From NCBI GenBank assembly GCA_020723385.1, contig DYIZ01000046.1, positions 1 to 39,978 of the forward strand: a stretch of DNA of 39,978 nucleotides, written 5' to 3'. Source of the DNA: Candidatus Aquidulcis sp. Its GTDB lineage: Bacteria > Chloroflexota > Anaerolineae > Anaerolineales > UBA4823. This document shows, in pieces, positions 13,360-39,978 of this stretch (position 1 is its first letter; every line of letters starts with the position of its first letter). Under the pieces are notes generated by a model. That model did not search any database. It was not told the origin of the DNA and worked only from the letters and a program-made list of their open reading frames with translations. Made by a program: the position numbers and the translations under genes.

Positions 13360-13372
13360 AAAGCATGCGCTC

Positions 13373-19581: not shown

Positions 19582-19629
19582 TTATGCGCCAAAGCGCACA
19601 GGCATTCAAAAACCCCAGGAGTTCACTGA

Positions 19630-21990: not shown

Positions 21991-22077
21991 AAACCAGGCT
22001 CTCTCCCCAAAGGCGGGAATTCGCCCCGTTAGAAACAGTAGAACCTAAAAACGCAATATTGCATAATACATTATTGG

Positions 22078-22232: not shown

Positions 22233-22367
22233 AGAAAACCACAGGGTGTTCAGAGCTAATTGTACGGTACTGCAATAAAAACATTCGTGCTATTCGACCA
22301 TTTGTGACATTCGTGACAAAAACGAAACGCTTGTAAATGTTCGGTAACAAACTCTCGTAGAGGCCTC

Positions 22368-23891: not shown

Positions 23892-24090
23892 CTTCATCTT
23901 GCTGGGAGATGACGGCGCTTTGAAGCTCGACCAATTCACCGTTTACCACAGCCAGATTGATCTCAGCCACAGGGATTCCCAACCGGGTTAGTATCTCGCT
24001 CAACCGGCTGGGCTTTTCCAATGGCACATCAACCTGGTGTGGATGGCCGGGGATGTAAAACGAAAACTGTCCGCCCAAATGAAGTTTCAC
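23860..24090 (-). CDS. MoaD/ThiS-family sulfur-carrier-like protein
   Basis: A 76-residue protein with the ubiquitin-like fold pattern of the family and the diagnostic C-terminal Gly-Gly (IYPPVSGG). In MoaD the terminal glycine is thiocarboxylated and donates sulfur to make molybdopterin. The start ATG overlaps the stop of the AOR gene (ATGA at 24090-24087), so translation is coupled. MoaD-like genes are often paired with tungsten AOR genes, where they presumably supply the tungstopterin cofactor. A dedicated tungstopterin role is inferred. It ends in a 32-bp convergent overlap with xylB and has no obvious terminator. Confidence 0.85.
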   Translation of the reverse strand: MKLHLGGQFSFYIPGHPHQVDVPLEKPSRLSEILTRLGIPVAEINLAVVNGELVELQSAVISQQDEVKIYPPVSGG

Positions 24091-25982
24091 CGCATTCCTA
24101 TCGAGTCTGCTGCCCAGCCGAGCGAGAGAGCCTCCAGCCGCTCCTGAGTCGGCTGGCCGGTTTCAGGATCCCAGCCTTTCAAGCCATACAAGACAGTCAG
24201 CGCATGCTCGAACTCATCGCGCGGGATGGCGTTGCCCTGCAAGGGGCCATTTTCCAGCCCTTGAAAAAGCCGTTCTGGCAGGGTGTCGTCTTTACGTGAG
24301 AACCCCTCGCGGAGATTGAATATCCGCGCCATATTGGTAGCGCGCTCGCCAATTTGCAGGGCTTCCTCCATCGTCATGTCCCAGCCGGTGGCGGCGTTGA
24401 TCGAAACCAGCACCTCTTCGGGAAGGATGAATGAGCGCGGCGCGGGGCCAAAGAAACAGTAACCGATCGCCTTTTCCAGGCTGTTCCATCTTTCCAGGAT
24501 ATAAAAGTGGTTCATCTTTTCATCGCTCAGGCTGCGCGGCGGTTGAGCCACGGCAATCCCGAGAGAGCGGGCGTTCTTGAACGTGAGCGAATCCGGGTTT
24601 GCCAGAGTGGGATCGTGCGCCACCACCAGATGGTCAGCGCCGATTTCGGAGATGGCGTACCCCATCCCGACGTTGTATTTCCCGCGCGGCTCGTGCATCG
24701 CCAATTCCTGCCCTTTGACCTGCATGGCAAAGAATTTCGCCTCACCGCCAATTTTTTCGGCAGCGCGCCGGCTGCCCTCGGCCAGCAAATCGCCAAAACC
24801 CTGCCGCCTGGCGATGCGGACGATCATTTGGAGCATGGCTTCGGCGTTGCCAAAGCGCAGCTCAATGCCATCGGTATCGTCCAGGCCAATCAGGCCATGT
24901 TCGAAGCATTCCATGGCAAAAGCAATCGTCGCGCCGGTGGAAATGCTGTCGAGCATGAAAGCGTTGCAAAGCTCGTTGGCTTTAGCGATGGCGTGCAGAT
25001 CATTGATGCCGCAGTCCGGGCCAAATGCGCCGACCGTTTCATATTCCGGGCCGCCGTAAACCGATACCTGGCCGTCAATGGCGACTTCGCGCTTGCAGCG
25101 GATGGCGCAGGCGTAACAACTACGCCGGGCGGTAAGCAGTTGCTTCTCGTAAGCTTCCCATTTGACATCGTCCACGTTTTCAAATGTGCCTTGGCGGAAG
25201 TTACGGGTCGGCAGAATCCCGCCGGTGTTGAGCGCCTCGACGAGACCGGGTGTGCCGCGTTGCTGCAAATCCCAGGCCTGGGGGCTTTCGCGCACGCCTT
25301 TTGCCAGTTTGCGGCCCAGCGCCATGAGCGCTTCGGAGTCGTACGCCAGGGTCTGGTAACGCTGGCTGCCGCGCACAGCCACAGCCCGCAGGTTCTTCGA
25401 CCCCATGACCGCGCCCATCCCGTTGCGCCCGTTGAAATGGCGCAGATCGTTGGTTATGCCGGCGTAGCGCACCAGGTTTTCGCCCGCAATGCCGATTTGA
25501 AGGACGCGGATTTTATCGTCGCCCAGCTCAGCGCGGATCGTCTCCTGAACGGGAGCAGTCTCCTGGCCCCATAGGTGGGCGGCCGGGCGGATTTCAGCCT
25601 GCCCATCGTGAACCCAGAGGTAAACCGGCTGGGGTGCGCGTCCGGTGAAGACGATGGCTTCGAAGCCCGCCATCTTAAGCTCCGGCCCCCAGAAGCCGCC
25701 CGCTTCCGATTCGCCGTAGCCGTTAGTCAACGGCGAGCGCGCCGAAACAACGTAGCGTGTGGCCGTGGAAACCGGCGCGCCCGTCAGCAGTCCATTGGCC
25801 ATCACCAGCACATTTTCAGGCGCAAAGGGTTCGGTATGGGCGGGGAGTTCTTTCAGCAGGATATAGCCAGCCAGCGCCTTGCCGCCCGGGTAAAGGCGGT
25901 AAAAGTCTTCACTGAGTGTTTCGATAGCCATCGCGCCGGTAGTCAGATTAACTCGCAAGACTTTTGCGGTGGTTCCATACAT
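24087..25982 (-). CDS. aor: Aldehyde:ferredoxin oxidoreductase (tungsten AOR family)
   Basis: A 631-residue protein, typical for the family, with GGAG 7-8 nt before ATG 25982. AOR enzymes oxidise aldehydes to carboxylic acids with ferredoxin, using a bis-tungstopterin and one [4Fe-4S] cluster. The cluster ligands are visible as Cys289, Cys292, Cys296 and Cys509. N-terminal AOR motifs include LYPGGKALAGYILLKEL and ESEAGGFWGPELKMAGF, and pterin-binding stretches include GRNGMGAVMGSKNLRAVAV and EIGADHLVVAHDP. It lies 22 bp downstream of the M24 gene in the LarA-M24-AOR-MoaD unit. The substrate is unknown; in this context an aldehyde such as sulfolactaldehyde or a sugar-derived aldehyde is plausible. 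The requirement for tungsten implies anaerobic or low-oxygen metabolism. Confidence 0.92.
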   Translation of the reverse strand: MYGTTAKVLRVNLTTGAMAIETLSEDFYRLYPGGKALAGYILLKELPAHTEPFAPENVLVMANGLLTGAPVSTATRYVVSARSPLTNGYGESEAGGFWGPELKMAGFEAIVFTGRAPQPVYLWVHDGQAEIRPAAHLWGQETAPVQETIRAELGDDKIRVLQIGIAGENLVRYAGITNDLRHFNGRNGMGAVMGSKNLRAVAVRGSQRYQTLAYDSEALMALGRKLAKGVRESPQAWDLQQRGTPGLVEALNTGGILPTRNFRQGTFENVDDVKWEAYEKQLLTARRSCYACAIRCKREVAIDGQVSVYGGPEYETVGAFGPDCGINDLHAIAKANELCNAFMLDSISTGATIAFAMECFEHGLIGLDDTDGIELRFGNAEAMLQMIVRIARRQGFGDLLAEGSRRAAEKIGGEAKFFAMQVKGQELAMHEPRGKYNVGMGYAISEIGADHLVVAHDPTLANPDSLTFKNARSLGIAVAQPPRSLSDEKMNHFYILERWNSLEKAIGYCFFGPAPRSFILPEEVLVSINAATGWDMTMEEALQIGERATNMARIFNLREGFSRKDDTLPERLFQGLENGPLQGNAIPRDEFEHALTVLYGLKGWDPETGQPTQERLEALSLGWAADSIGMR

Positions 25983-26004: not shown

Positions 26005-27123
26005 CTAAACTTCCAATGCCAGCGCGCAGGGAACTTCTCCTGGCTGGCCGTGAATTTGAATAGATATTATCGGCCAAAGTGAAGTGATCGTCAAGATTTC
26101 GTTGGTCTCTGACCCAACCAGAATAGTATCTTCCATTTTGGCCCCGGCGATAGACGGATTCCAGGCCAGCGCCTGGCCTTCAATGATGACATCGCTGGAG
26201 GCGGGCGTTCCGAGATACTCGCGCGGCTCGTAACCAGTCACCCCGCCCTGGTGGTGCTGGCGCCACTCATCGGGGAAGCCCGCACGGGCGTACGCCTCCT
26301 GCCCCTGGGTAAGAACATCGTTGAGCGTACGCCCAGGCCGCGAGTGCGCGATCAGCGCGGCGTTCACCTGGGCCGCGGCGGAAATCCGGCGGCGCAGATC
26401 ATCTGGCAGCGGGCCGAAATGCACCAATCGGGTTATCGAACACACCAATCCCTGACGCCGTCCGCTCAGTACCAGCATGGCGTATTTGTCCAGCTTTTTC
26501 TCGGTCGGTAGGGGATGACGGAAGCGGTAGACGCGCTCGTCGGTGGCGATCAGGTTGACGATGGGCTGGATGCCGCGCTGTTGGGCTTCGCTGCCAAGCA
26601 GCGAAGCAAGCTGGTACTCGCTCATACCGGGACGAATCGCCTGCGCCGTGGAGGACATGGCTGCGGCGCACCGGCGGCCCAGCTCTCGGAAGCGCTCGCC
26701 CTCTTGGGGGGTCAGGCGGGCGCGCAGGCGCGCCATGTCGGCGCTGATCTCTTTCGAGTTGGGGAAAGGCACATCGGAAACCAACGACAGACCGGAGACC
26801 AGGCTTTGCAGCGCCACGAGGGGGGTATCCCAGGGGGAAACGTGAAACTCCCAGCCCTGGTCAGCCAGTTTTTCTTCCTGTTCCAGGCGCGGCGCTTCGA
26901 TGGTGTTGGCGGCTAAATAGAGGCGCTGGCGGGTGATCAGGAGGGATGCCGCACCTTCGGTTGTGGCAGTATTAACGTAGGAAGCCGCGCCGCAAGTGGC
27001 CCAGGCGAAGCTGCTCACCCGGCGCAGGAGCACCCCGTCCACAGCATGTTTATCGAGCAGCTCACGCAGGATGGTGATTTTGGTCTGGAATTCAGGGCTT
27101 TTCGGCAGCATAGGAATAGTCAT
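26005..27123 (-). CDS. M24-family (Xaa-Pro aminopeptidase-like) protein with degenerate metal site
   Basis: A 372-residue protein with the creatinase N-terminal domain (residues 1-140, FAWATCGAASYVNTATTEGA) and a pita-bread C-terminal domain. Active M24 peptidases bind two metals through Asp, Asp, His, Glu, Glu. Here the first Asp region reads MLVLSGRRQG, the second Asp is Ser229 (CSITR), the first Glu is Asn322 (WNPS), while His291 and Glu331 may remain. It is therefore unlikely to be a normal dimetal peptidase; a non-peptidase hydrolase, binding or chaperone role is possible. Its ATG overlaps the LarA stop (ATGA), so translation is coupled to LarA. No clear ribosome site is present. Confidence 0.8.
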   Translation of the reverse strand: MTIPMLPKSPEFQTKITILRELLDKHAVDGVLLRRVSSFAWATCGAASYVNTATTEGAASLLITRQRLYLAANTIEAPRLEQEEKLADQGWEFHVSPWDTPLVALQSLVSGLSLVSDVPFPNSKEISADMARLRARLTPQEGERFRELGRRCAAAMSSTAQAIRPGMSEYQLASLLGSEAQQRGIQPIVNLIATDERVYRFRHPLPTEKKLDKYAMLVLSGRRQGLVCSITRLVHFGPLPDDLRRRISAAAQVNAALIAHSRPGRTLNDVLTQGQEAYARAGFPDEWRQHHQGGVTGYEPREYLGTPASSDVIIEGQALAWNPSIAGAKMEDTILVGSETNEILTITSLWPIISIQIHGQPGEVPCALALEV

Positions 27124-28421
27124 TTCAGAATATATGGGATTGTGGATGAAGCGTGGGGCAGGATGCCGACGCGCTCGCCGGGCTGCAAATCAGCCAGCGC
27201 CAGGTCTATAGCGGTTTGCAGGTCGCGCACCGGGTTGAGCAGCAGGGCGCTGGCGAGAGCCGCCTCCATCTCGGAGCAGAACAGCAGGCGCAACCGGGAT
27301 GCATCACGGGCGATTTGGTAGGCTTTGTGCGGGCCGATGCGGAAACCTTCGGCGTTGAAACATTCCAGGATTTCAGCGTAGGATAGCTTGCCGCTCATCC
27401 ATTCTTCGTAGTGCGAGCTGCCGGAGCCTTCGGGACAGGCGGCGGCGAGGATGACCGTGCCGCCAGGGCGTGTGACCCGCGCGGCGTGCGCCAATCCTTT
27501 TTGAGCCTGGTACACGTTGATGTCTTTGGGATGCCCGCCGGGGGAGGAAATCGTCAGCCCGTATGGCTGCCGGACGGCTACCTGGCAGGCCTGCCGTGAG
27601 AGTTCCAGCCCGGCGCGCACTACCTGGCGCGGGTCGCCGGCCAGGGCATGGACAATTTGTTTATCCTGGTTCAAGATGGCATTGAGCGCCAGGTGAACGC
27701 CAATTTTCTGCCCGATTTCCTCGATATCCTGGCGGGCCGGGTTGTTTTCGTATTCGCCCAACTGCGAGTCGGGGTGTGTCATCAGGGCGTGGTTGTGGTT
27801 GATGGTTCTCAACCCCGAAAGCCCGATAGCTGCCGTTTTGACGCCGCCGGAGAAGCCCGCGAATTGGTGGGGCTCGATATTGCCGATCACGATACGCAGG
27901 TCGGCGTCCATCCAGGTCCGGTTGCCGATCACGATCTTGAAATCAGACTGAATGTAACCTCTGTTCGAACAGACCGGTGTGCCGCGCGAGGTCGCACCCA
28001 GGTCTAGCAGCAAGTTGGTATTTTCAGCATCGTGCGAGATGACCGTGTAGCGTGCCAGGATATCGGCGGGCAGGATGGATGGGAACTCGCCGGGGGCCAT
28101 CGGGGGATGGGTGCCAGCGGCGATGTAGAAGGTAATCGCAGAGTCGGGGATCCCCAGGGCCGAGAGATGTTCCATCAAGGGTGGTAAAAGCTGATGGTGG
28201 GGTACCGGGCGTGTCTTGTCGTTGATGGCAATTGCCGCCGAGCGAGCGCCAGCGAAATCGGCCCAGCGCACCTCCCCGAGCAGGTGATCGAGCGCGGCGT
28301 GGACGACTCCGAGCGGATCGTCAGCCGGGCGGGTTGCTGGCGCTTCGATGATGTCCACGTCGAGATGGCCGGGGAGGCGAGCTGTCAGGAACGAGCGCCC
28401 ATAAGGAACATGAATTTCCAC
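27120..28421 (-). CDS. larA: LarA-type nickel-pincer racemase/epimerase
   Basis: A 433-residue protein from GTG 28421, chosen because GGAG lies 7 nt upstream and the length then matches LarA (about 425); a longer frame to 28526 would overlap the exporter gene. LarA enzymes invert alpha-hydroxyacids through a nickel pincer nucleotide covalently held by a lysine. Visible residues: His105 (AAGTHPP), His185 and Lys195 in EPHQFAGFSGGVK with the exact family spacing, and a His pair near 209-211 (NHNHAL). Two adjacent copies of a 14-residue unit precede the catalytic loop (153-166 and 167-180). It starts 2 bp after the exporter stop. The cofactor genes larB/C/E are not in the window. The substrate is unknown; lactate or sulfolactate are candidates. 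Confidence 0.85.
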   Translation of the reverse strand: MEIHVPYGRSFLTARLPGHLDVDIIEAPATRPADDPLGVVHAALDHLLGEVRWADFAGARSAAIAINDKTRPVPHHQLLPPLMEHLSALGIPDSAITFYIAAGTHPPMAPGEFPSILPADILARYTVISHDAENTNLLLDLGATSRGTPVCSNRGYIQSDFKIVIGNRTWMDADLRIVIGNIEPHQFAGFSGGVKTAAIGLSGLRTINHNHALMTHPDSQLGEYENNPARQDIEEIGQKIGVHLALNAILNQDKQIVHALAGDPRQVVRAGLELSRQACQVAVRQPYGLTISSPGGHPKDINVYQAQKGLAHAARVTRPGGTVILAAACPEGSGSSHYEEWMSGKLSYAEILECFNAEGFRIGPHKAYQIARDASRLRLLFCSEMEAALASALLLNPVRDLQTAIDLALADLQPGERVGILPHASSTIPYILK

Positions 28422-28423: not shown

Positions 28424-29542
28424 TCAAGCTCCGAGCGGGGTGAGCAAAATAAGGCTCAAGCTGACAATCGCCAGGACAACCGCCACGCAGGTGCCGATGA
28501 TCAACGGCTTTATGCCAAGTTTCCACAGGGCCGAAAGGTCGGTATTCAGGCCCACGCCGGCCAAAGCCATCAAGATGGCGAATTTGGAGATTTCATCGAG
28601 GGCTTTCAGCGCGCCTGCGGCCAGGTGCAAATCGCCGGGGCTGGAGACGCTCTGCGGCAAAACGCCGAGGGCGACTCCCAGCGTGCGGATGAGCGACATC
28701 ACCAGGAAGCCGATCACAAACCCAGGGACGAGCTTGCCCCAGTCGAGGCGCGAGGCCTGAACGGCTTTGGCGCTCATTTTATTGTTCAACCCTCGGGAGT
28801 AGATCAATCCGAACAACACGATGAGCGGGGCCATGAGTGTGTTGCGGGTCAATTTGACGACTGTCGCCACATCGAGGGCCGCCTCGCCAAAAATTGCGCC
28901 GACAGCCACCACCTGGGAAGTATCATTGACTGCGGTGCCCGCCCACAGGCCAAAAGATCGGTCGGAGAGGCCAATCAGGTGACCGATCATCGGGTAAACC
29001 AGCACCGCAATCAGGCCGAAGAACGTAATCGTTGCCACGGCGAAACTCATCTCTTCTTCGTCCGCCTCCAGCACCGGGGCAGTGGCGACGATAGCGCTGT
29101 TCCCGCAGATGGCGGTGCCCACGCCGATCAACGCCGCCAGGCGGGGTGGTACGTGGAAGATGCGGCCGGCAAAATAGGCCAATACAAGGGCGACCGTGAT
29201 GCAGATTGTGACCAGCGCCAGGGCAGTCACCCCGGTGGCGGCCACATCCTGGAGGCTCAGGCGCAAGCCCAACAGGATGATCCCGAAGCGCAGAATGCGC
29301 TGGATGGAAAACTTCACCCCGTCTTTGACGCGTTCGCCCAGCCCTATCGAATTGCGTAGATATAAACCTAAAAGGACTGCCACCAGGATTTCGCTGATGG
29401 ATTTACTGAGCGTGGCGTTCGGGATCAGCCCGTGAATGAAACGGCTGGCAATCGCCACGCCCAGAACCAGGTGCAGGCCGGTCCAGCTCTGTTGTAGTTC
29501 GCGCTGGAGTGGCTGAAATAATTTTTTGAATGAGGTCAACAT
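28424..29542 (-). CDS. YeiH/PSE-family putative sulfate or sulfite exporter
   Basis: A 372-residue membrane protein from ATG 29542, with AGGA 8 nt upstream; an upstream extension to 29602 runs through the terminator hairpin and is rejected. It has about ten hydrophobic segments and the family motifs IGVGTAICGNSAIVATAPV and AVNDTSQVVAVGAIFG (COG2855/UPF0324, putative sulfate exporter family). Members of this family are encoded beside sulfonate-degrading enzymes such as sulfolactate sulfo-lyase in other bacteria. Here it lies directly downstream of the SuyA/SuyB-like pair and 2 bp upstream of larA. The predicted role is removal of sulfite or sulfate released in the cytoplasm. Transport itself is not proven by the sequence. 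Confidence 0.8.
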   Translation of the reverse strand: MLTSFKKLFQPLQRELQQSWTGLHLVLGVAIASRFIHGLIPNATLSKSISEILVAVLLGLYLRNSIGLGERVKDGVKFSIQRILRFGIILLGLRLSLQDVAATGVTALALVTICITVALVLAYFAGRIFHVPPRLAALIGVGTAICGNSAIVATAPVLEADEEEMSFAVATITFFGLIAVLVYPMIGHLIGLSDRSFGLWAGTAVNDTSQVVAVGAIFGEAALDVATVVKLTRNTLMAPLIVLFGLIYSRGLNNKMSAKAVQASRLDWGKLVPGFVIGFLVMSLIRTLGVALGVLPQSVSSPGDLHLAAGALKALDEISKFAILMALAGVGLNTDLSALWKLGIKPLIIGTCVAVVLAIVSLSLILLTPLGA

Positions 29543-29566
29543 GAATATCCTGATCAAAAAGAAGGG

Positions 29567-29607
29567 GTGGGGTGTTTGTGCGGACGAAGCCCGCATAAAC
29601 ACCCCAC
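29567..29607 (-). terminator. Rho-independent terminator or attenuator between lyase and exporter genes
   Basis: Arms 29567-29583 and 29591-29607 pair over 17 bp with a single mismatch and a 7-nt loop. On the minus strand the stem is followed by CCCTTCTTTTTGATC, a T-rich tract. It lies 39 bp after the lyase stop. Downstream genes must be read through or have their own promoter. Confidence 0.75.
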
Positions 29608-29645: not shown

Positions 29646-30812
29646 CTATGCGCTGCGGTAGAGCTTGGTGATCACAAACTCATCGTGACGCAGGGTTTCA
29701 GCGTTGGTCAGGCGGCCATTGATGGTGTGCGCCATCATTTCCAGCGTGCGGTCGGCGGCGCCATCCAGGTTGTATTCGAAGCGCAGCAGGCCGGAGATGT
29801 CCACATCAATATGCTCCGACATGGTTTCGACTGTCAGCGGGTTGGCCGAAAGTTTGATGACCGGCTCGATCGGGTTGCCGATGATGTTGCCCTGCCCGGT
29901 AGTGAACAGGTGCAGCACAGCACCCGCCGCGCAGCAGAGCGTGACCATCTCGGCAGCCGCGCTGGACGAATCCATGAAGTGCAGGCCGGGGCCTTTGGGC
30001 GCTTCAGCCGGTTTTAGGAAGCCAACGATGGTGCAGCGCCCCATTTTTTCCACGTTGCCGAGCGCCTTCTCGTCAATGGTCGAAAGGCCTCCGCGGATGT
30101 TGCCTTCTGTGGGCTGGGTGCCCAGCAGGCTGACGCCCTGGGATTCGACCAGTTCCTGGTAGTTGTCGAAAGCGGCCTTGAATTGGGCGGCAATTTCCGG
30201 GGTGGCGCACTGCTCGATGATTTTGTCTTCCGCGCCGGTCACTTCGGTGGTTTCGCCGAAGATGAGGGTATTGCCATTCTTCTCCAGCCGCTCGAAGACG
30301 CGCCCAACCGTGGGGTTGGAGGCCAGCCCGCTGGTCGTATCGGATTCGCCGCATTTGGTCGAAACCCAGATCTCTTCCCATTGCACCGGGACGCGTGGCA
30401 GCTCGGTCGCATACTGGACGAACTCCTTGGCCTTGCGGGAGGCCATCTCGATGGTCTTCAGGTCGCCGTAGCGTTCGATGCTGAAACCAGCCACGGGCTT
30501 GCCGGTCTCGGCGATGCCTTTGACAATGTAATCGGTCCAATTCGGCTCGATGCCGATCACGATAACGGCTGCCACGTTGGGGTTTCTGCCGGTACCAATG
30601 AGGGTATCGAAGGTCAAGTTGAGATCGTCGCCGAATTGCAGACGACCGTAAGGGTGGGTGAGGGCCATGGTGCCGCGTATCAGGCGGGCGACGCCTTCCA
30701 CCGCAGCGTTGGAAATGTCGTCCACCGACATGATCAGAACGTGGTTGCGAATACCGACGCGCCCATTTTCGCGGCGGTAACCCATCAGGGGAAAATCTTT
30801 ATAAGTAGCCAT
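29646..30812 (-). CDS. suyB: UxaA-family lyase large subunit, probable (2R)-sulfolactate sulfo-lyase beta (SuyB-like)
   Basis: A 388-residue protein from ATG 30812, with AGGAG 5 nt upstream. It matches the C-terminal catalytic part of altronate/galactarate dehydratases but is encoded apart from the SAF domain, as in SuyA/SuyB. SuyAB cleaves 3-sulfolactate to pyruvate and sulfite. Motifs: GRVGIRNHVLI (18-27), GRNPNVAAVIVIGIEP (75-90) and KCGESDTTSGLASNPTVG (153-170). Usual UxaA cysteines after HPYG and in the GCE turn are Arg56 and Ile88 here, and CGGSD reads CGESD. I recall GIEP and CGESDTT as SuyB-like, but this was not checked. The neighbouring exporter supports SuyB; altronate dehydratase is the alternative. 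No uronate isomerase or tagaturonate reductase is nearby. Confidence 0.65.
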   Translation of the reverse strand: MATYKDFPLMGYRRENGRVGIRNHVLIMSVDDISNAAVEGVARLIRGTMALTHPYGRLQFGDDLNLTFDTLIGTGRNPNVAAVIVIGIEPNWTDYIVKGIAETGKPVAGFSIERYGDLKTIEMASRKAKEFVQYATELPRVPVQWEEIWVSTKCGESDTTSGLASNPTVGRVFERLEKNGNTLIFGETTEVTGAEDKIIEQCATPEIAAQFKAAFDNYQELVESQGVSLLGTQPTEGNIRGGLSTIDEKALGNVEKMGRCTIVGFLKPAEAPKGPGLHFMDSSSAAAEMVTLCCAAGAVLHLFTTGQGNIIGNPIEPVIKLSANPLTVETMSEHIDVDISGLLRFEYNLDGAADRTLEMMAHTINGRLTNAETLRHDEFVITKLYRSA

Positions 30813-30820
30813 AATGACTC

Positions 30821-31132
30821 CTACTTCTCGAATATTTTTGAACTGCTGGCTGCCCATCGCAGGCTTTTGATATTGTGCACGTGCACGTGCGCCCCCAGGC
30901 GGATGGCCTGGATGGCATAGCCGATGGCGCGTCCATATTCCTGGATATGTTTGCCGTTCTCCAGGGCGCGCATGGCAACTTTGTGACCCAGGGGAATATC
31001 CTCGACGACTTTGATCGGGGTGACCGGATTGCCTTCGAGGGTTACGGCTTCGACTTCTTCGCCCGCTTTGATGTTCATGGCGGCGACGCCCACATCATCG
31101 CTGGCTTCATGCAATAAAATGCCTTTTTTCAT
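30821..31132 (-). CDS. suyA: UxaA N-terminal SAF-domain subunit, probable sulfolactate sulfo-lyase alpha (SuyA-like)
   Basis: A 103-residue protein from ATG 31132 with AAGGAGAG upstream; an extension to 31195 is not supported. It is a stand-alone SAF domain: DIPLGHKVAMRALENGKHI (about 51-69), EYGRAIGYAIQAIRLGAHVHVHN (71-93). In fused UxaA this forms the N-terminus; a separate gene of this size followed by the large subunit is the arrangement of SuyA/SuyB and of two-gene altronate dehydratases. It ends 8 bp before the large-subunit start, so the two form one complex. It begins 136 bp after the transaldolase gene; that gap shows no clear hairpin or promoter. Confidence 0.65.
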   Translation of the reverse strand: MKKGILLHEASDDVGVAAMNIKAGEEVEAVTLEGNPVTPIKVVEDIPLGHKVAMRALENGKHIQEYGRAIGYAIQAIRLGAHVHVHNIKSLRWAASSSKIFEK

Positions 31133-31268
31133 ACTGATCTCTCCTTCAATGTATGATTGAATCTTGATCGTTTCACGATGGCAGCACTTCTCCATGTCTC
31201 GACTATTGAATCGCCCCCTTCGGATGCCTCTTCACCTGGGTGCAGTGTACCCTCGCGGCTATCTTGGA

Positions 31269-31931
31269 TTATTTATACGGTGTCTGATCCCAAAACTCCT
31301 GGAATTTCTGCAAGCCCACGCCGGTGTACGGGTGGTCGAAGGCCTCCTTGTACACAGCCAGCCCGGCAGTCACGATATCCGCTCCGGCGACCGCCGCGTC
31401 CACGATCTGGCGGCCATTGCGCACCGCGGCCACGATGATTTCGCTGTCGAAACCATAATTGTCACGAATGTCGAGGATTTCTTCGACAAAACTCTGGACT
31501 TCTTCGCCGTTGGCTTCCTTCCAGCCGATGAATGGCGAGATAAAGTACGCTCCCATCCTCATGGCTTGCAGCGCCTGCGCGGCAGAGAAAACCAGGGTCA
31601 AATTCGAGCGGATGCCTTTTTCTTTCAAGACCGCCACCGCCTTGAAACCGGCTTCGGTGGCGGGTAGCTTGATCACGAAGTTCGGGCTGATCGCCGCCAG
31701 GATTTCACCTTCGGCGACCATTTTTTCATAATCGGTGAAGTGGGGATTCACCTCGACGGATATCGGCTTGTCGGTGCCGGCAAAGAGAGCGCCGATCTCA
31801 CGAATCACGGTTAGAAACGGCTTGCCCGACGCCTGCACATGGCGCGGGTTGGTGGTGACGCCATCCAGGTTCCACATTTTCAAAGCATATTCGATTTCTT
31901 GAACATGCGCGCTATCGAGAAAGAATTTCAT
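31269..31931 (-). CDS. Transaldolase-like aldolase (FSA/TalC family), divergent
   Basis: A 220-residue enzyme, the normal length for FSA/TalC, with GGAG upstream of ATG 31931. Class I Schiff-base chemistry is supported by Lys88 (NFVIKLPAT) and Asp6 (FLDSA). Several otherwise conserved residues differ: TTNPS is TTNPRH (Arg30, His31), the phosphate-binding Arg of E. coli FSA (Arg134, in NR or GR) is Trp137 (PFIGW), and Ser166 (AAS) is Val170 (AAVR). It may therefore act on a ketose without a 6-phosphate, for example 6-deoxy-6-sulfofructose. It lies 16 bp after the GH31 gene. A plain dihydroxyacetone-transferring aldolase cannot be excluded. Confidence 0.85.
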   Translation of the reverse strand: MKFFLDSAHVQEIEYALKMWNLDGVTTNPRHVQASGKPFLTVIREIGALFAGTDKPISVEVNPHFTDYEKMVAEGEILAAISPNFVIKLPATEAGFKAVAVLKEKGIRSNLTLVFSAAQALQAMRMGAYFISPFIGWKEANGEEVQSFVEEILDIRDNYGFDSEIIVAAVRNGRQIVDAAVAGADIVTAGLAVYKEAFDHPYTGVGLQKFQEFWDQTPYK

Positions 31932-31947: not shown

Positions 31948-34119
31948 TCATTTATGTTGGATTTTGACATCGGACGGGAGGTTGGCGATGTTCCCATCGG
32001 ATGATATGCTCAAATCGAGACCCGGCAATTGCATTCCCTGCCGGGGCTTGCCAAACGCCCAAACTTGTTCCAGGTCCAGCCCGGGCTTGAGTTCACCGGT
32101 ATGCTGGACGGCTGGCCCCAAGGGGAGGAGGGCCCCTTCTCTCCCGAAAACGGGTATGCGGTCGAGCGGGACATCCCACTCGAAGTGCTGCGGCCCCTCC
32201 AGCCAGGTCTGATTCCAGATGTCGAACCACTTCCCGGCGGGCAGGTAGAAGCGTACTTTCCCGCCCGGCACAACCACGGGGACTACTAGCAGCGATCCGC
32301 CTAGCATATATTGCTGGTCGAATTGCCAGGCAATACGATCCTCAGGGAAGGCCAGGACCATCGAGCGCATCACCGGCATCCCGGTCTGGCTGGCTTCCAG
32401 CGCACAGCCTTGCAAGTAGGGGATCAACTGGTAGCGCCAGTCCAGCCATTTGCGGATGATCTCCTCCGCCTGCTCGCCATAGACCCAGGGTTCGCGTTCG
32501 CCCAGGCCGTGGAAGCGGGTGTGCGACGCCATCACGCCAGCCTGCGCCCAGCGGATATACAGCTCAGGCTCCGGGTTGCCGATGGCGAACCCGCCAATAT
32601 CGTGAGCGTAGAACGGCCCGCCGCTCATCCCCCAGGCCTGCCCGCCGCGAATGGAGGCAGCCAGCCCTTCCCAGTCGGATTGCGGATCGCCACCCCATTG
32701 CACGGGGTAACGCTGCCCGCCGGCCCAGGCTGCCCGCCCCCAAACCATTGGTTCATCCTGGCTGTACATCTCGGTGGCTTCGTAGACGCAGCGGTTGTAT
32801 AAATGCGTGTAGACATTGTGCAGGCGTTTGCCGCGGTCGCCGTTGAAAGCCACGACCTCCTCGGGAACCGCCTCGCCGTAATCGGTTTTCATCACGCTGA
32901 CGCCGATGTCGAACAACTGCTTGTGCTGATCGCGGTACCAGGCGTACGCATCGGGATTGGTGAGATCAATGATCCCGCTGGGCATCAGGTGCGGCCAGCT
33001 TTTGTCATACGGCCAGGGGAACCAGCGGTGGATATAGGGGGCGCCGTCCGGGTTTTTGAGGAAATACCCCTTTTCGGCCAATTCATTGAACAACGGATTG
33101 CGGGTCGAGAGATAGGAATATTCCCACAGGTTCAGCCGGATGCCCAGGGCGCGCAGCTTCTGAACGAACCCGGCCGGGTCAGGATAACGCGCTGGATCCC
33201 ATCGGAAATCGAAACGATCTTCCATGGTGTGCCAGGCGCGGCCATCCAGGAGCAGCACATCGCAGGGGATCTTGTGTTCCCGTAATTTCTGGGCGACATC
33301 CAGCGCAATCTCGCCGGTGCGATAGTAGGCGCGCGACATCCAAATGCCATAACTCCAGCGCGGCGGCAGAGCAGCGCGTCCGGTCAGGTGGGTGTAGCGC
33401 TCGATCATCTTGGCGGGGCTGTCGGCGGCGATGAAGAACAGGTCGAGTTCAGCGTCGAAGACCTGTAAAATGTAACTGCGATGCGACCATTGGGGATACC
33501 CGACCCCATGCGTCACTTTCGAGGGGGTATGGGTAAACAGCCCCCAGCCCTCGGGACTCCAGGCGAAGGGGGTATTCTTGTAAGAAAGCTCGGAGTTGAG
33601 CGTGGTGGCATCCTCGTTCCAGTTGTGGATGAGCTGCCCGCGCCGGTTGAGGGCGGCCCACTTCTCGCCTAACCCGTAGATAGGCTCGCCATTTCCTAAT
33701 GCCAGCGCCACAAGCCAGGAATCATTCCGCCTGGCAAATGGGGAGAAGCGCAATTGGCCCTCGATGGTGCGATCGGTGACGGATTGCAGCAGCAGTTTCT
33801 TGCCCTGGTAAAAGCGAATGCGCATGGGGCTGCTCAGGATTTCGAGCGCCATGTTGCCGGATTGAACCCGGTAGCCATGCTGAATCGCGGAAACTTCCAA
33901 TTCGAGCTGCTCAGATGTCTTATCCAGAATACCGTAATCGGGCTGGCTATGTTCTGCGACCAGCTTCATCCGCAGAATGCCAGGCGCAAAGCAGGTGATT
34001 TCGAAATCGCCGGCCAGGGTGCGAAACGTTGCACAAGTGGGCGTTTGCACTTTGAGTGAAATTGCTTCGAGGGATTCATAACCTTTTTGAAGGATGATGC
34101 CTTCGTGATGGAGAATCAT
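31948..34119 (-). CDS. Glycoside hydrolase family 31 (YicI-like alpha-glycosidase)
   Basis: A 723-residue protein without signal peptide, start ATG 34119 with GGAG upstream. The catalytic nucleophile is Asp413 (KTDYGE) and the acid/base is Asp478 (WGGD), with YAHDIGGF further on; the overall layout follows E. coli alpha-xylosidase YicI. It hydrolyses an alpha-linked sugar imported by the adjacent ABC system. Differences: the loop normally reading WINPY is LWEYSY (331-336), and the region 292-302 (DGRAWHTMEDR) and 364-376 (HRWFPWPYDKSWP) is Arg/Trp-rich. The sulfoquinovosidase signature (Gln, Gln, Arg-x-x-Trp, Tyr) is not seen, the Tyr being Phe511. Substrate is open: alpha-xyloside, alpha-glucoside or an unusual sugar. 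Confidence 0.87.
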   Translation of the reverse strand: MILHHEGIILQKGYESLEAISLKVQTPTCATFRTLAGDFEITCFAPGILRMKLVAEHSQPDYGILDKTSEQLELEVSAIQHGYRVQSGNMALEILSSPMRIRFYQGKKLLLQSVTDRTIEGQLRFSPFARRNDSWLVALALGNGEPIYGLGEKWAALNRRGQLIHNWNEDATTLNSELSYKNTPFAWSPEGWGLFTHTPSKVTHGVGYPQWSHRSYILQVFDAELDLFFIAADSPAKMIERYTHLTGRAALPPRWSYGIWMSRAYYRTGEIALDVAQKLREHKIPCDVLLLDGRAWHTMEDRFDFRWDPARYPDPAGFVQKLRALGIRLNLWEYSYLSTRNPLFNELAEKGYFLKNPDGAPYIHRWFPWPYDKSWPHLMPSGIIDLTNPDAYAWYRDQHKQLFDIGVSVMKTDYGEAVPEEVVAFNGDRGKRLHNVYTHLYNRCVYEATEMYSQDEPMVWGRAAWAGGQRYPVQWGGDPQSDWEGLAASIRGGQAWGMSGGPFYAHDIGGFAIGNPEPELYIRWAQAGVMASHTRFHGLGEREPWVYGEQAEEIIRKWLDWRYQLIPYLQGCALEASQTGMPVMRSMVLAFPEDRIAWQFDQQYMLGGSLLVVPVVVPGGKVRFYLPAGKWFDIWNQTWLEGPQHFEWDVPLDRIPVFGREGALLPLGPAVQHTGELKPGLDLEQVWAFGKPRQGMQLPGLDLSISSDGNIANLPSDVKIQHK

Positions 34120-34145: not shown

Positions 34146-35198
34146 TTACTTCATGCCGGTGGTAGCGATGCCGGTCGTGATATAGCGCTGGAGGAAGCCA
34201 AAAACCAGCGTGATGGGGAGCAGCGTCAATACCGTCATCGCCAGAATGAGATTCCACTGGACGTTTAGCTCACCCTGGAAGGAAGCCAGCCCAACCTGGA
34301 GGGTGAAATACTCGCTGCGGCTCAAAACGACCAGGGGCCAGAGAAAATCATTCCAGCGCCACATGATCGAGAAAATGGTCAGCACCGCCAGGGCCGGTTT
34401 TGCCAGGGGCAGGATGACCTGCGAATAGATGCGCCACTCGCTGGCGCCGTCAATGCGGGCCGCATCAATCAGCTCATCGGGGATGGTGAGCATATACTGG
34501 CGCAGCAGGAACACGCCGGTGGGGGTGGCTGCCGCCGGGACGATGATGCCCAGGAGGTTGTTGTTCCAACCGACATTCGTAATCACTAAAAATACGGGGA
34601 CCAACACCACCGAGAGCGGCACCATCAATGTACTGATCATGATGATGAAAATGGTTTGGCGTCCGCGAAATTTATACTTGCTCAGAGCGAACGCCGCCAT
34701 GCTGTTGACCAGCAGGGTCAGCAACGTCGCGAAAACGGTCACAATCACGCTGTTCCATAAATAGAGACCGAAATTGAAACTCTCTACGCCTTCGATGTAG
34801 TTATCCAGGCCAAAATACACCCGCTCAACCGGCTGGCGTTTGTTGATATTGACCTTGATAATCTCGCCAGGGTTGGCGGGGTCAATCATCTGGGCTTCCA
34901 GGCCGATGCGCCGCACCTGTGCCAGAGTCTGGGTGGCGCCGTCATCCATTTTGATTATGTATAACGGCAATGGGTCTTCATACCCATCCACCACCACTGT
35001 CTCCTGGCGATAAGGTAACAAGCGCGGCGGGAATTTGACGATTTCGCCGGAGGTCTTGAAGGAAGAAAGGACCAGCCATACGATTGGGCCAAACATAAAA
35101 ATAACGCCCAGAGCGAGGTATCCATAAGAGAGCACATCGGTGAAATCGAGCTTTTTGCGGCCTTTGGTCCGCCGCAGACCGTCCACTATCGTGTTCAT
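34146..35198 (-). CDS. Sugar ABC transporter permease (MalG-like) with extended extracellular loop
   Basis: A 350-residue membrane protein from ATG 35198, with GAGGA upstream inside the end of the previous gene. The EAA loop reads DELIDAARIDGASEWRIYSQ. Between the first transmembrane segment and the core lies an extra domain of about 70 residues (about 68-138) with VVVDGYEDPLPLYIIKMDDG and repeated charged residues. Such an insert occurs in some CUT1 permeases and may contact the binding protein. It starts 1 bp after its partner's stop and ends 26 bp before GH31. No ATPase gene is present in the cluster. Confidence 0.88.
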   Translation of the reverse strand: MNTIVDGLRRTKGRKKLDFTDVLSYGYLALGVIFMFGPIVWLVLSSFKTSGEIVKFPPRLLPYRQETVVVDGYEDPLPLYIIKMDDGATQTLAQVRRIGLEAQMIDPANPGEIIKVNINKRQPVERVYFGLDNYIEGVESFNFGLYLWNSVIVTVFATLLTLLVNSMAAFALSKYKFRGRQTIFIIMISTLMVPLSVVLVPVFLVITNVGWNNNLLGIIVPAAATPTGVFLLRQYMLTIPDELIDAARIDGASEWRIYSQVILPLAKPALAVLTIFSIMWRWNDFLWPLVVLSRSEYFTLQVGLASFQGELNVQWNLILAMTVLTLLPITLVFGFLQRYITTGIATTGMK

Positions 35199-35199
35199 C

Positions 35200-36213
35200 T
35201 CAATTTTCCTCCCGCCGGGCAATCAATTGAACCAATGTCAGGATGACCAGCGCGCCCGCCATCAGCAAGGATGCCGCCGCGGCCAGGCCGAACTGCTTGT
35301 TCGGGCTGGAAAAGCCATAACTGTAGATGTATTGCACAATATAGAGCGTTGCAGTTCCGGGGCCGCCTCCGGTGAAGGCAAAGACGATGTCGAAAACCTG
35401 AACGGCCCGTATCAAGGATAGAACCAGAACCACTACCATCGTCGGCATGAGCAGCGGCATGGTAATTTTCGAAAAAGATTGCCAGGGATTAGCCCCATCT
35501 ATCGCTGCCGCTTCATACAAATCCGCTGGGATGGATTGCAAACCGGCCAGCAGGATGAGTGTATAAAACCCCATAAATGCCCACACGCTGATCAGGATGA
35601 CCAACAACCTGGCCCATTGGGCGTTGACCAAAAAGGGGATTTTGTCATACCCCAGGCCGGTCAGGATGCCGTTCAGCAGGCCATTTTCCTGTAAGATCCA
35701 CTTCCAGATGAGGGCGACCACGATTGGGGAGAGCAGCACCGGGTAGAAAAAAACACTTCGGAAGAAGCCGCGAGCTTTGATATTCCGATTCAGGATCAGA
35801 GCTGTGATGAGTGACAGCAGCACCATCAAAGCGACTTGAAAAACCACATAACCGATTGTGTTATACACCGCCCGCCAGAACAAATCTTCGCCGCAGGTGC
35901 GAGGCTCGAGGTAATTCTCGCAGGCCAATAAACGGTCGAAATTTACCGTACCGGCCCAGGGACGATCGAATGGCGAAAATGACGAGCCCCCCGTAAATGC
36001 ATAAACAAAGTTGAGCAGCATGGGGAAAAGGATGAATATGCCAAATATCAGCAGGTTCGGCAGAACAAAAACATAGGGCATGCCGCGTACCCCGATAATG
36101 CGTTGTGTCGTGCCAAAAATCAAGTCGAGAAGAGAAATAATAAGGTCATAGATCGAAGTGAATACCCCGCTGACAGCATTTCTGGCACGTTTTATCCCAG
36201 GTTGCGCAAGCAT
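35200..36213 (-). CDS. Sugar ABC transporter permease (MalF-like)
   Basis: A 337-residue membrane protein from ATG 36213, with GGAGAGG upstream; the frame extends to 36258 but that part crosses a hairpin. It has about six core transmembrane segments, an extracytoplasmic loop with two cysteines (LACENYLEPRTCGED) and the EAA loop ADLYEAAAIDGANPWQSFSK. It pairs with the MalG-like subunit to form the channel for the sugar captured by the upstream binding protein. Confidence 0.88.
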   Translation of the reverse strand: MLAQPGIKRARNAVSGVFTSIYDLIISLLDLIFGTTQRIIGVRGMPYVFVLPNLLIFGIFILFPMLLNFVYAFTGGSSFSPFDRPWAGTVNFDRLLACENYLEPRTCGEDLFWRAVYNTIGYVVFQVALMVLLSLITALILNRNIKARGFFRSVFFYPVLLSPIVVALIWKWILQENGLLNGILTGLGYDKIPFLVNAQWARLLVILISVWAFMGFYTLILLAGLQSIPADLYEAAAIDGANPWQSFSKITMPLLMPTMVVVLVLSLIRAVQVFDIVFAFTGGGPGTATLYIVQYIYSYGFSSPNKQFGLAAAASLLMAGALVILTLVQLIARREEN

Positions 36214-36229
36214 GTCGCCTCTCCAATCT

Positions 36230-36264
36230 GGCGGGGTGCAGTGATTACGGAACTGCACCCCGCC
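36230..36264 (-). promoter_or_regulatory. Intercistronic hairpin after the third binding-protein gene
   Basis: GGCGGGGTGCAGT and ACTGCACCCCGCC form a 13-bp perfect stem with a 9-nt loop, beginning 16 nt after the binding-protein stop on the minus strand. There is no T-run. It is equivalent in position to the hairpins at 12345-12380 and 15524-15559. Confidence 0.75.
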
Positions 36265-36279: not shown

Positions 36280-37680
36280 TTACTTCTGTGCTTCGGCAAT
36301 AGCCTTGTCAATATCATCCTGAAGATTGACCAGCATCTCGTCGAGGGTCAATTCGCCGCTCAGATATTGGGCAATGCGGTTGGCGCTGTTGCGATAATAC
36401 GCAAAGGCGTAGGGATGAACGTTCAAGGATACGGCCTGATCCGTCAGCTTCGGAACTTCTGCCGTGTAAGCTGATAGGGCAGCCAGCACTAAAGGATTAT
36501 CGGTTTTGAATTCGACGCCGTTGGTCGCGACCGCTGTATGCGCAGGCAGAGACAGCGTGCCAGCCGAGAACTCGCGATAGTTTTCTTCCTGGATCAGGAA
36601 TTCAACCAGTTTGGCGACTTCCGCGGGGTGCTGGGTGCCAGCGAAAGCAACCACAGCAGAACCACCGGCGATCCCGGTTGAGCCACCGTCTCCCGTAGGA
36701 TTGGGAACGACGACCCAGTCGAAGGCATCTCCAACATCCTTTGCAATACCGTTGATCTGCCAGGAGCCGGACATGCACATCACCAACTGAGCCGATTTGA
36801 AAGCGGCAATGCAACTGTTGACCGGTTCAGCGCCCAACCAAACCTCTTTGGGAGTGATCTCTTCGTCGTGCCAGCTTTTTACGATTTCGGCGAAAGCGCG
36901 GAAGCCGGGTGTATCCACCGTGAAGTTGCCTTCAGCATCTATCAAAGTCGCGCCCATGCTCATGGCTGGGCCAGCAAAACGATGCCCGGTGCGATCAATG
37001 GCGATGGCGTATTGCACGCCAGTGGCCTCGGCAACCTGCTTGGTCAACTCGGTCCATTCTTGCCAGGTGGTTCCCTCGCCCGGTAATGCCACACCCGCCT
37101 GGTCGAATAAGGTTTTGTTAACGTATGGCCCGGTCACCGTGAGAGTATCCGGGTAGCCGCCATAGCCCAGTGCTTCCAGAATGGGGGCGGGGAAGTTGGC
37201 TTCATAGGAAGCTGAATCAGCCAGGAGGGGGCGTAGATCTAACAGTTTGCCTCGGTAAGCGCCGAAGTTCGTGATCCGAGCAAGGTCCGGCCCCTGGCCG
37301 CTTTCTACCTGAACAGGCAGTTGTTCATCAATGGTTTTGTAAGGCACGACATCCAGGATAACGGTGATATTTGGATTTTCCGCCATGAACTTGTCAATCA
37401 AGGGTCTGATTATGTCAGCTTCGACGCCATCAGCATAATAGGTAAAGCGCAATTCGACTGGCTCAGCGGTAGGTACGGCGGTCGGTTCGTCTGTTGGGAT
37501 GGCGGTAGGAACATCAGTGGGCACTGCGGTCGGGACTTCAGTGGGGACCGCGGTTGGCACCGCTGTGGGAACCGGAGCTTTCGTTGCAGTCGGCGCCGGT
37601 GTTGGCGTGGTTCCACATGCAGATAGAAGCACTGCAACCAACAGCAATGGGATAAACAGCTTATTCAGTTTCATCTTCAT
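36280..37680 (-). CDS. Sugar ABC transporter substrate-binding lipoprotein with long PT linker
   Basis: A 466-residue protein from ATG 37680 (AAGGAG 4 nt upstream); ATG 37674 is a close alternative, and an extension to 37785 is not supported. Signal peptide residues 1-21 end in LLSAC (Cys22). Residues 25-74 are a low-complexity tether of about a dozen x-P-T units (VPTAVPTEVPT...). The solute-binding family 1 domain follows (ELRFTYYADGVEADII, ESGQGPDLARITNFGAYRG, WQEWTELTKQVAEATG). It probably binds the glycoside that the GH31 enzyme later hydrolyses. It is the first gene after the ROK-isomerase pair, 159 bp downstream of the isomerase. Confidence 0.9.
   Translation of the reverse strand: MKMKLNKLFIPLLLVAVLLSACGTTPTPAPTATKAPVPTAVPTAVPTEVPTAVPTDVPTAIPTDEPTAVPTAEPVELRFTYYADGVEADIIRPLIDKFMAENPNITVILDVVPYKTIDEQLPVQVESGQGPDLARITNFGAYRGKLLDLRPLLADSASYEANFPAPILEALGYGGYPDTLTVTGPYVNKTLFDQAGVALPGEGTTWQEWTELTKQVAEATGVQYAIAIDRTGHRFAGPAMSMGATLIDAEGNFTVDTPGFRAFAEIVKSWHDEEITPKEVWLGAEPVNSCIAAFKSAQLVMCMSGSWQINGIAKDVGDAFDWVVVPNPTGDGGSTGIAGGSAVVAFAGTQHPAEVAKLVEFLIQEENYREFSAGTLSLPAHTAVATNGVEFKTDNPLVLAALSAYTAEVPKLTDQAVSLNVHPYAFAYYRNSANRIAQYLSGELTLDEMLVNLQDDIDKAIAEAQK
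37453..37620 (-). repeat. Low-complexity repeat encoding the Pro-Thr linker
   Basis: Short tandem units of about 12 bp encoding V/I-P-T-x within the binding-protein gene. This kind of sequence expands and contracts by slippage. Confidence 0.6.
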
Positions 37681-37719
37681 TCTTCTCCTTGTTCGGATTA
37701 GCCGGAAGGTACCGGGGTT

Positions 37720-37745
37720 TGTGAAAATATAGTCACAGATGTGAC
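37720..37745. promoter_or_regulatory. Palindromic candidate operator upstream of the ABC/GH31 operon
   Basis: GTCACA-GA-TGTGAC (37732-37745) has perfect 6-bp arms. It overlaps a second pair, TGTGA...TCACA (37720-37737, 8-bp spacer), reminiscent of CRP/FNR-type half sites but with altered spacing. On the minus strand TATATT (just before TTCACA) could be the -10 box. It lies about 40-65 bp upstream of the binding-protein start, a suitable place for a local regulator. Confidence 0.45.
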
Positions 37746-37760
37746 CTTTGGGCGGTGTTT

Positions 37761-37778
37761 CCTTGCTCACAAGCAAGG
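37761..37778 (-). terminator. Short hairpin between isomerase and binding-protein genes
   Basis: CCTTGC (37761-37766) and GCAAGG (37773-37778) with a 6-nt loop, about 60 bp after the isomerase stop. There is no T-run, so terminator function is weakly supported. Confidence 0.3.
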
Positions 37779-37839
37779 GCTTCACTTACGTCGGACAATA
37801 GTTTTAGATTGATGGTTGATATTGCGATACTATGGATTT

Positions 37840-39213: not shown

Positions 39214-39978
39214 ACTTGACCTTCCTGCTCGGGTTGGTAGAAAAATTGCATCAATGCCAGTGCGGCCGCGCCAATCATGCCGGCTTTCCACCCAAAAGTG
39301 GTCGCTTGCAGGCGGACTTTTTTACCCAGCCCGCCAAAAGACATCTGGCGAACGGTCTCGTTGGTTTGTTCGAGAAACAAATCCTGACCTTGAGAATAAA
39401 TGCCGCCGAGTAAAATCAATTCGGGATTGAAGAGGTTGACTACGTAGGCTAACGCCAAGCCAAGGTAATAGGCGCGCTCACTCAGCATGTGTTGGACATC
39501 CAGGTCGCCTTGCCGGGCGGCTATGAAAACGCGCTCGATCAATGGGACATCCTGTCGAGAATTGATCGTCTGTGCAAGAATGCCCCCTGGTTTCAAATGG
39601 GATAAAGTTTCTGCCTGTCGAAGGATGGCTGGCTCAGAAACCAGGGTTTCCAGGCAGCCACTATTGCCGCAATGACAAGGTTCGCCGCCGCGCATCAACA
39701 TAACCGTGTGGCCGATTTCACCAGCGCCAGTGCTGCTGCCGCGAAAAACTTTTCCATCGAAAACCAGGCCCGCGCCAACACCTGTGCGGCCGTAGACAAA
39801 TGCCAGAGAGTTTACCCCGCGGCCTGCGCCGAAATAGGTCTCGCCGATTGCCATGGCGCGCACGTTGTTATCTACCACCACTGGCAGGTTTAACGCTTTT
39901 TGGAAGTAGGCGCGGATGGGAACATTGTGCCAGTTGAGATTGGGGGCCAGCAAGTTCTCGCCTGTAGAGAAATCAACC
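39210..39978 (-). CDS. ROK-family sugar kinase or repressor (5' part missing)
   Basis: The C-terminal 255 residues are in the window and the frame stays open to position 39978, so the N-terminus is outside. ROK features are clear: a start region reading STGENLLAPNLNWHNVPI, VDNNVRAMA with the catalytic Asp position, and the zinc motif CHCGNSGCLE. Because the N-terminus is missing it cannot be decided whether a helix-turn-helix is present (XylR/NagC-type repressor) or not (glucokinase-type). Its stop overlaps the isomerase start, so the two are co-translated. As a repressor it would be the natural local regulator of the downstream operon, acting perhaps on the palindrome at 37720-37745. Confidence 0.88.
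   Translation of the reverse strand, partial: VDFSTGENLLAPNLNWHNVPIRAYFQKALNLPVVVDNNVRAMAIGETYFGAGRGVNSLAFVYGRTGVGAGLVFDGKVFRGSSTGAGEIGHTVMLMRGGEPCHCGNSGCLETLVSEPAILRQAETLSHLKPGGILAQTINSRQDVPLIERVFIAARQGDLDVQHMLSERAYYLGLALAYVVNLFNPELILLGGIYSQGQDLFLEQTNETVRQMSFGGLGKKVRLQATTFGWKAGMIGAAALALMQFFYQPEQEGQV

Follow-up and report, generated by a model that had tools for sequence, protein, structure and literature searches.

The stretch of DNA considered here (the window) is one whole contig of 39,978 nucleotides (DYIZ01000046.1, C147 in our numbering) from the assembly GCA_020723385.1 of Candidatus Aquidulcis sp. (Chloroflexota; 6.43 Mb in 239 contigs, 95.6% complete), and it encodes a homologue of the racemase LarA in one gene run with the predicted (R)-sulfolactate sulfo-lyase SuyAB. 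The best-supported reading of this homologue is that it is probably a sulfolactate racemase, dependent on the nickel-pincer nucleotide (NPN), that would convert (S)- to (R)-sulfolactate between sulfoglycolysis and SuyAB, sulfolactate as the substrate being a prediction from gene context and chemistry. In the proposed route, sulfoquinovose would yield (S)-sulfolactaldehyde by way of an enzyme resembling fucose isomerase and of a transaldolase of the sulfofructose type, and an aldehyde:ferredoxin oxidoreductase (AOR) would oxidize this product to (S)-sulfolactate. LarA would move the hydride at C2 onto its nickel-pincer cofactor and return it; H105 and H185 would serve as acid and base, and H365 and K366 are positioned so that they could bind the sulfonate in the way that they would bind the second carboxylate of malate. 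SuyAB would cleave (R)-sulfolactate to pyruvate and sulfite, and a YeiH-type protein would export the sulfite. LarA would thus take the place of the NAD-dependent pair of SlcC and ComC, published as a two-component sulfolactate racemase (PMC12421959, PMC9594981). The stereochemical gap on which the original prediction of this role was built, between (S)-sulfolactaldehyde formed from the sugar and an R-specific SuyAB, is likewise on record in these sources.

The LarA gene is as originally described: its coordinates, 27120-28421, are correct, the strand, which had been left out, is minus, the stop codon of the exporter gene lies 2 bp ahead of its start codon, and its stop codon and the start of the M24 gene overlap in an ATGA. 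The residues H105, H185, K195 and H211 were found by alignment as they had been named; of the positions covered by the wording "His near 209-211," H211 is identical throughout the 92 aligned rows but H209 is variable, and therefore the nickel ligand is H211. All 92 rows, among them the window copy, agree at D68, R71, H105, H185, F187, K195, H211, K308, and H365, and these residues contain both the catalytic set (H105, H185, K308, corresponding to H108, H174, K298 of LarA) and the NPN set (R71, K195, H211, corresponding to R75, K184, H200 of LarA). Sulfolactate is malate with a sulfonate replacing the second carboxylate. At the two positions (358/359 in LarA) where malate racemases have H or Q followed by K, a lysine believed to bind their substrate's other acid group (PMC11770544), H365 is present in 92 of the 92 rows and K366 in 91. 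By the sequence tests available the protein is a member of LarAH5, scoring 524.2 bits against the "malate racemase" equivalog model of NCBIfam (NF052595; cut-off 462) and falling under the cut-offs of the LarAH6, lactate racemase, and LarAH10 models of the same collection. This membership had not been recognized originally; identity as a lactate racemase is rejected at 268.7 bits, versus a cut-off of 460 for that model. The best PDB match is Mar2 (6d6z), and the AlphaFold model, for which 46 relatives were used (mean predicted local distance difference test score, pLDDT, of 93.0), has the two-domain LarA fold (E-value 5e-43 against 7s91; template-modeling score 0.90 against 5huq_A), with LarA and Mar2 as its top PDB folds.

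As to the neighboring genes that suggest the substrate, SuyB shares 61.5% identity with a UxaA-family protein that Cupriavidus pinatubonensis encodes in its hpsN/hpsO cluster. Among the 40 listed of 314 records, 13 plasmid proteins are 58-63% identical to the window SuyB, the other 27 being at most 38% identical; the plasmid matches include this protein and one from a Paracoccus cluster that also encodes a "putative sulfate exporter." Within the UxaA family the window SuyB sides with the SuyB clade, and a SAF-domain SuyA lies beside it. The transaldolase scores 259-263 bits with sulfofructose transaldolases (263 with 8bc3) versus 167 with the next family, and it has the TTNPRH motif in common with the sulfofructose transaldolase BmSF-TAL. 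The exporter, originally called sulfite/sulfate-type, is well over the cut-off of PF03601 but not over that of the narrower TIGR00698 (156.5 bits versus 232.6), and it is 32% identical to the exporter adjoining SuyAB in Paracoccus versutus.

The linkage of LarAH5 with SuyAB is conserved. In a first sample of 121 genomes (the window genome and 120 relatives), 14, the window genome included, encode a LarAH5 protein over the cut-off. Of the 13 other LarAH5 loci, 6 have SuyA and SuyB upstream of LarA, as does none of the 6 loci with a below-cut-off LarA. A larger set of 80 loci from named genomes, which are the best 80 of 590 LarAH5 relatives and not an even sample, has true SuyB in the flanks of 27, a SuyB-like protein (36-39% identity) in 21, and neither in 32, one locus (L098) with a 50-residue SuyB match having been placed in neither of the two SuyB classes. 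The true SuyB proteins of the 27 loci are 69-90% identical to that of the window, lying upstream and on the same strand in 26, and the loci, all from metagenome-assembled genomes, belong to Chloroflexota (17), Actinomycetota (7), Verrucomicrobiota (2), and Acidobacteriota (1). An M24 homologue directly follows LarA in 7 of the 80, every one with true SuyB. On a quick tree of LarAH5, with 39 of its 87 inner branches open, SuyB labels are clustered, the seven Actinomycetota sequences stand together, and the Verrucomicrobiota and Acidobacteriota sequences stand elsewhere. Residue 186, in the catalytic loop, follows the same division: it is Gln in 29 of 29 alignment rows with true SuyB and in 20 of 21 with a SuyB-like protein, whilst His (EPHHF) occurs in 12 of the 42 rows that remain, with no instance among the 50 Suy-linked ones.

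The published alternative to such a racemase occurs in other lineages. Even with the threshold relaxed to E 1e-3, none of the 80 LarAH5 loci has ComC beside LarA; SlcC is beside it in one (L085), a doubtful match about 8 kb downstream that looks like a phosphoglycerate dehydrogenase. Of 400 genomes sampled evenly from the window's phylum, 17 encode SuyB at 57% identity or above, with LarA beside it in two, the window genome and G110; among the 15 others, 13 loci were read locally, with LarA in none (E 1e-3), a ComC-like gene in 6, and an SlcC-like gene in 8, one of these matches (L202) being weak, at 33% identity and about 5 kb away. L196-L198 and L204 have a comparable cluster of isomerase, permease, and transaldolase-family genes (the transaldolase being only 32-33% identical to that of the window), in which genes for an aldehyde dehydrogenase, SlcC, and ComC take the places that AOR and LarA have in the window. 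Genome-wide, Ldh_2, the family holding ComC, is absent in 7 of 7 close genomes with LarA and SuyAB, and present in 5 of 23 distinct genomes of this kind tested (24 entries, one a duplicate). It is also present in all 8 tested genomes with a LarA-less SuyB locus, a figure that is inflated, as these genomes were chosen out of 15 with knowledge of the local result, 5 of them with a known local ComC, and as LarA was excluded only at the SuyB locus. Fisher values on these counts ignore phylogeny and genome choice and are descriptive only. The role in sulfolactate racemization is supported because SuyAB and LarA are linked in four phyla, because no ComC (and one doubtful SlcC) lies beside LarA in the 80 loci, and because ComC- or SlcC-like genes occur in many of the SuyAB loci that have no LarA; this much speaks for the original prediction, which is supported in part and did not hold for the cofactor genes of the window genome.

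Several observations weigh against a sulfolactate racemase, in addition to the uneven sampling noted above and to the cofactor genes and an insertion considered below. Among the 32 LarAH5 loci with neither SuyB nor a SuyB-like gene, L084 encodes a protein 68% identical to the relative used as the scan query; 9 of the 32 have less than 3 kb of upstream sequence. Three loci (L199, L201, L205) have SuyB with no LarA, ComC, or SlcC in the flanks, a fourth (L208) being cut at the contig end, and therefore SuyAB is not always accompanied by a nearby racemase gene. Clusters that lack LarA encode a transaldolase-family protein only 32-34% identical to that of the window. The window GH31 glycosidase scores 408 bits with YicI versus 133 with the sulfoquinovosidase YihQ, and the residues that we take to bind the sulfonate in YihQ (R301, W304, Y508) are not conserved in the alignment. 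For this reason the starting sugar is unproven, and sulfoquinovose would rest on the transaldolase and SuyAB, not on GH31. Sulfite, the product of SuyAB, is a reversible competitive inhibitor of LarA that also shields its cofactor from oxidation (PMC11851776), which would make a sulfite-releasing pathway a hard setting for LarA, in which the adjoining exporter may matter. Finally, the authors of the work on Mar1, the Desulfitobacterium hafniense enzyme on which the LarAH5 name is based, considered that malate may not be native and suggested tartrate or 2-hydroxysuccinamate, and the available text leaves sulfolactate out of these options (PMC7583248).

The original prediction had set the presence of larB, larC, and larE elsewhere in the genome as its own check and their absence as a refutation, and for the window genome the outcome goes against it: profile searches of the window genome gave no matches to larB or larC, and the best match to larE was at 37.9 bits versus a cut-off of 150. 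Among 29 genomes with SuyB-linked LarAH5 (those of the 27 true-SuyB loci plus G000, the window genome, and G022), larB and larC are present in 11 and were not found in 18. These tests come from two sets, 50 of the 80 named loci and 40 chosen genomes; L083, L088, L090, L105, and L107 were taken to be G005, G023, G115, G010, and G110 and counted once; L139, with a partial LarB (111 bits, under the cut-off), was scored as lacking, and the LarC of the genome of L161 (G144), with one internal stop, as present. A mere assembly gap is rejected as the cause of the absences, as larB and larC pass the cut-offs in the same 15 of the 50 named-genome loci and in no others, and the one-contig genome G012, with a LarA-family gene below the LarAH5 cut-off, has neither; in the set of 40 chosen genomes, the two genes occur together in 10, and G021 has just a fragment of LarC. 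Missing larBC is not taken as decisive because 11 of the 29 linked genomes carry both genes and because the cofactor-binding residues are invariant in larBC-less genomes as well, a pattern suggestive of hosts that lost the synthesis and kept the need, and that may obtain the cofactor by uptake or another route. The window copy is also alone among the 92 rows in having a 14-residue insertion ahead of the catalytic loop, a feature absent from the original description. The insertion echoes the next strand (DFKIVIGN and DLRIVIGN); a recent exact duplication as its origin is unsupported, 29 of 78 bases matching at an offset of 42. Together, the insertion and the missing larB, larC, and over-cut-off larE would fit a former sulfolactate racemase that has become cofactor-less in the window lineage and is decaying. 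We consider this improbable, since the reading frame and the operon are intact, the cofactor residues are kept in other larBC-less genomes, the insertion is modeled as a low-confidence loop (pLDDT below 50 at residues 160-171) with the rest of the fold kept, and the window genome retains a second LarA protein. The latter (contig C32, L056:639-2207) has a GntE-like loop (EV) and lies beside a gene that, by eye, resembles 6-phosphogluconate dehydrogenase.

A racemase of malate, or of a tartrate-type substrate, whose position in the operon is incidental would agree with the LarAH5 equivalog score, with the H/K signature of malate racemases, and with the tartrate epimerization known as a side activity of Mar1 (PMC11770544), and related EPHHF-type LarAH5 proteins do occur outside of Suy clusters: those of L152 and L158 adjoin Asp23-, NusB-, and PEP-carboxykinase-like genes (names given by eye) and are perhaps true malate racemases. 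However, profile searches recognized no malate-specific gene in the operon, the linkage to SuyAB extends over four phyla, the Suy-linked rows are set apart from the EPHHF type at residue 186, and Mar1 itself has a KM of 55 mM for L-malate (PMC7583248) and a substrate doubted by its authors, so that we regard this alternative as unlikely, if the least unlikely of the three weighed here. As to the species of Mar1, D. hafniense DCB-2 uses sulfolactate as an electron acceptor (PMC12890257) and a candidate suyB is on record for D. hafniense DSM 12704 (PMC6278857), though either may differ from the strain of Mar1. Quite improbable, in our estimation, is a C2 epimerase of sugar acids feeding a UxaA-type dehydratase, with SuyAB misread: SuyB does belong to the galactarate/altronate dehydratase family, and the SuyB-like proteins of 21 loci reach 36-39% identity only, but the window SuyB sides with the 13 plasmid proteins at 58-63% and not with the 27 remaining records listed, the transaldolase is of the sulfofructose type, and the loop and helix-14 residues differ from the set published for gluconate epimerases (E, V, A, H; PMC11770544). 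A sulfolactate racemase remains the reading that we prefer.

From position 39953 down, the minus strand encodes, in this order, the ROK protein, the fucose-isomerase-like protein, the binding protein, two permeases, GH31, transaldolase, SuyA, SuyB, the exporter, LarA, the M24 protein, and AOR (Table 1). The M24 protein seems, by eye, to have none of the metal-binding Asp residues that characterize M24 peptidases. The window has no match to the aldehyde dehydrogenase that lies beside SuyAB in Rhodococcus koreensis, and AOR may take this SlaB step; a ferredoxin-coupled aldehyde dehydrogenase has been suggested for sulfolactaldehyde oxidation in a Desulfovibrio strain (PMC6278857). LarA genes that belong to other groups (L050, L051, L052, L054) likewise have AOR-family genes (29-42% identity) no more than about 3.5 kb away. 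A separate xylose-type cluster, with genes for a LacI regulator, ABC transporters, a xylose-isomerase-like barrel, GH3, and xylulokinase, runs towards the operon on the plus strand (9817-23891).

Table 1. Features of the minus-strand operon around the LarA homologue, in window coordinates.
Feature	Position	Strand	Details and basis
AOR, predicted to convert sulfolactaldehyde to sulfolactate	24087..25982	minus	PF01314, PF02730; after LarA in several relatives
M24-fold protein	26005..27123	minus	PF00557, 56.5 bits; 4-bp overlap with LarA
LarAH5-type NPN-dependent 2-hydroxyacid racemase, predicted sulfolactate racemase	27120..28421	minus	433 amino acids; GTG start at 28421, stop at 27120; NF052595, residues, model
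In-frame 14-residue insertion in LarA, residues ~158-171	27909..27950	minus	alignments, base-by-base reading, model
YeiH/PF03601-type exporter, predicted sulfite exporter	28424..29602	minus	PF03601, 253 bits
SuyB, large subunit of (R)-sulfolactate sulfo-lyase	29646..30857	minus	identity to hpsN/hpsO-cluster protein; start of open reading frame may precede true start
SuyA, small SAF-domain subunit	30821..31195	minus	PF08666; adjoins SuyB here and in relatives
Sulfofructose-type transaldolase (SF-TAL)	31269..31931	minus	best PDB matches BmSF-TAL 8bc3 and kin
GH31 glycosidase	31948..34119	minus	nearer to YicI than to sulfoquinovosidase YihQ
Two sugar ABC-transporter permeases	34146..36258	minus	PF00528 in both reading frames
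Sugar ABC-transporter binding protein	36280..37785	minus	PF01547
Fucose-isomerase-like protein, predicted sulfoquinovose isomerase	37840..39291	minus	PF02952; in operon of several relatives
ROK-family protein at contig end	39210..39953	minus	PF00480

Other gene arrangements were noted among the relatives. The SuyB-like protein precedes LarA in the 21 loci mentioned (L125:6770-11251, for example), often with a GH4 glycosidase, and 6 of these loci also have an SF-TAL homologue at about 70% identity or more (one partial); such proteins may be a second branch of sulfolactate lyases or another dehydratase. In L102:2942-11245 (Anaerolineae CSMAG_2273), LarAH5 is in one run with genes for ComA (phosphosulfolactate synthase), PGK-like, PFK, Cgl0159-type, and GH4 proteins, with no SuyAB; some 9 kb upstream lies a homologue (39%) of the PF03601-type exporter. 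This locus might be a second link of LarA to sulfolactate chemistry, with ComA running in reverse to release sulfite. ComA (83-84% identical to that of L102), the 330-amino-acid protein of L102, and a PF03601-type exporter homologue occur together in L237 and L239 (genomes G633 and G699), with no LarA in the 17 kb read, possibly as a ComA-based sulfonate module. A wider linkage of ComA and LarA is rejected: LarA is present in none of 18 ComA regions, read for about 8 kb on each side where the contig allows and representing 15 of the 20 matched genomes in a class sample of 396.

In the open-licence literature we found no paper joining LarA proteins with sulfolactate or proposing a LarA-type sulfolactate racemase, and the pair of dehydrogenases was the only published bridge found, at the level of sulfolactate, between the stereoisomers of sulfoglycolysis and SuyAB. 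If the role proposed here is correct, one redox-neutral enzyme would make the anaerobic path that leads from the head group of the plant sulfolipid to pyruvate and sulfite complete in Chloroflexota and others, and LarAH5 enzymes would gain a native substrate, a question left from 2020. The missing larB and larC in many LarA-bearing genomes raise a separate question, of cofactor supply; about 15% of the genomes analyzed in one study have larB, larE, and larC and no larA (PMC11796402), and no discussion of the opposite case, larA without larBC, was met in the available portion of that text. As a tentative extension, for which we claim a possibility well short of even, the EPHQF branch of LarAH5, possibly with Mar1 among its members, might consist of dedicated sulfolactate racemases transferred across four or more phyla, one enzyme replacing SlcC and ComC, with many of the hosts being nickel-pincer auxotrophs without larB and larC that would obtain NPN from neighbors or by another route.

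Among the known systems, the Mar1/LarAH5 enzyme of D. hafniense belongs to the same subfamily as the window LarA by the curated cut-off, and the catalytic, cofactor, and second-acid-group residues printed for malate racemases are also found in the window protein. The two differ in that malate is the main printed activity of Mar1, tartrate being a side activity, whereas the neighbors of the window LarA point to sulfolactate; in the LarAH5 group considered here, larBC are often absent from the host genome. Mar2 of Thermoanaerobacterium thermosaccharolyticum (6d6z, 7s91) is the best solved relative, sharing the fold and the catalytic residues, but its identity is about 30%, and the catalytic His is followed by YK in Mar2 and by QF in the window LarA. 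Extended sulfo-TAL clusters with SuyAB are already published for Thermotogae and Chloroflexi (PMC9594981), combining the transaldolase route with SuyAB as the window does, and the text on those clusters, in the portion available, mentions neither a racemase nor an aldehyde:ferredoxin oxidoreductase. A functional parallel is the racemization by SlcC and ComC in Chromohalobacter and Paracoccus, with the same proposed net step, from (S)- to (R)-sulfolactate, ahead of SuyAB. While that system employs two NAD(P)-dependent dehydrogenases and proceeds via free sulfopyruvate, LarA would accomplish the step as one NPN enzyme, with the hydride transfer hidden.

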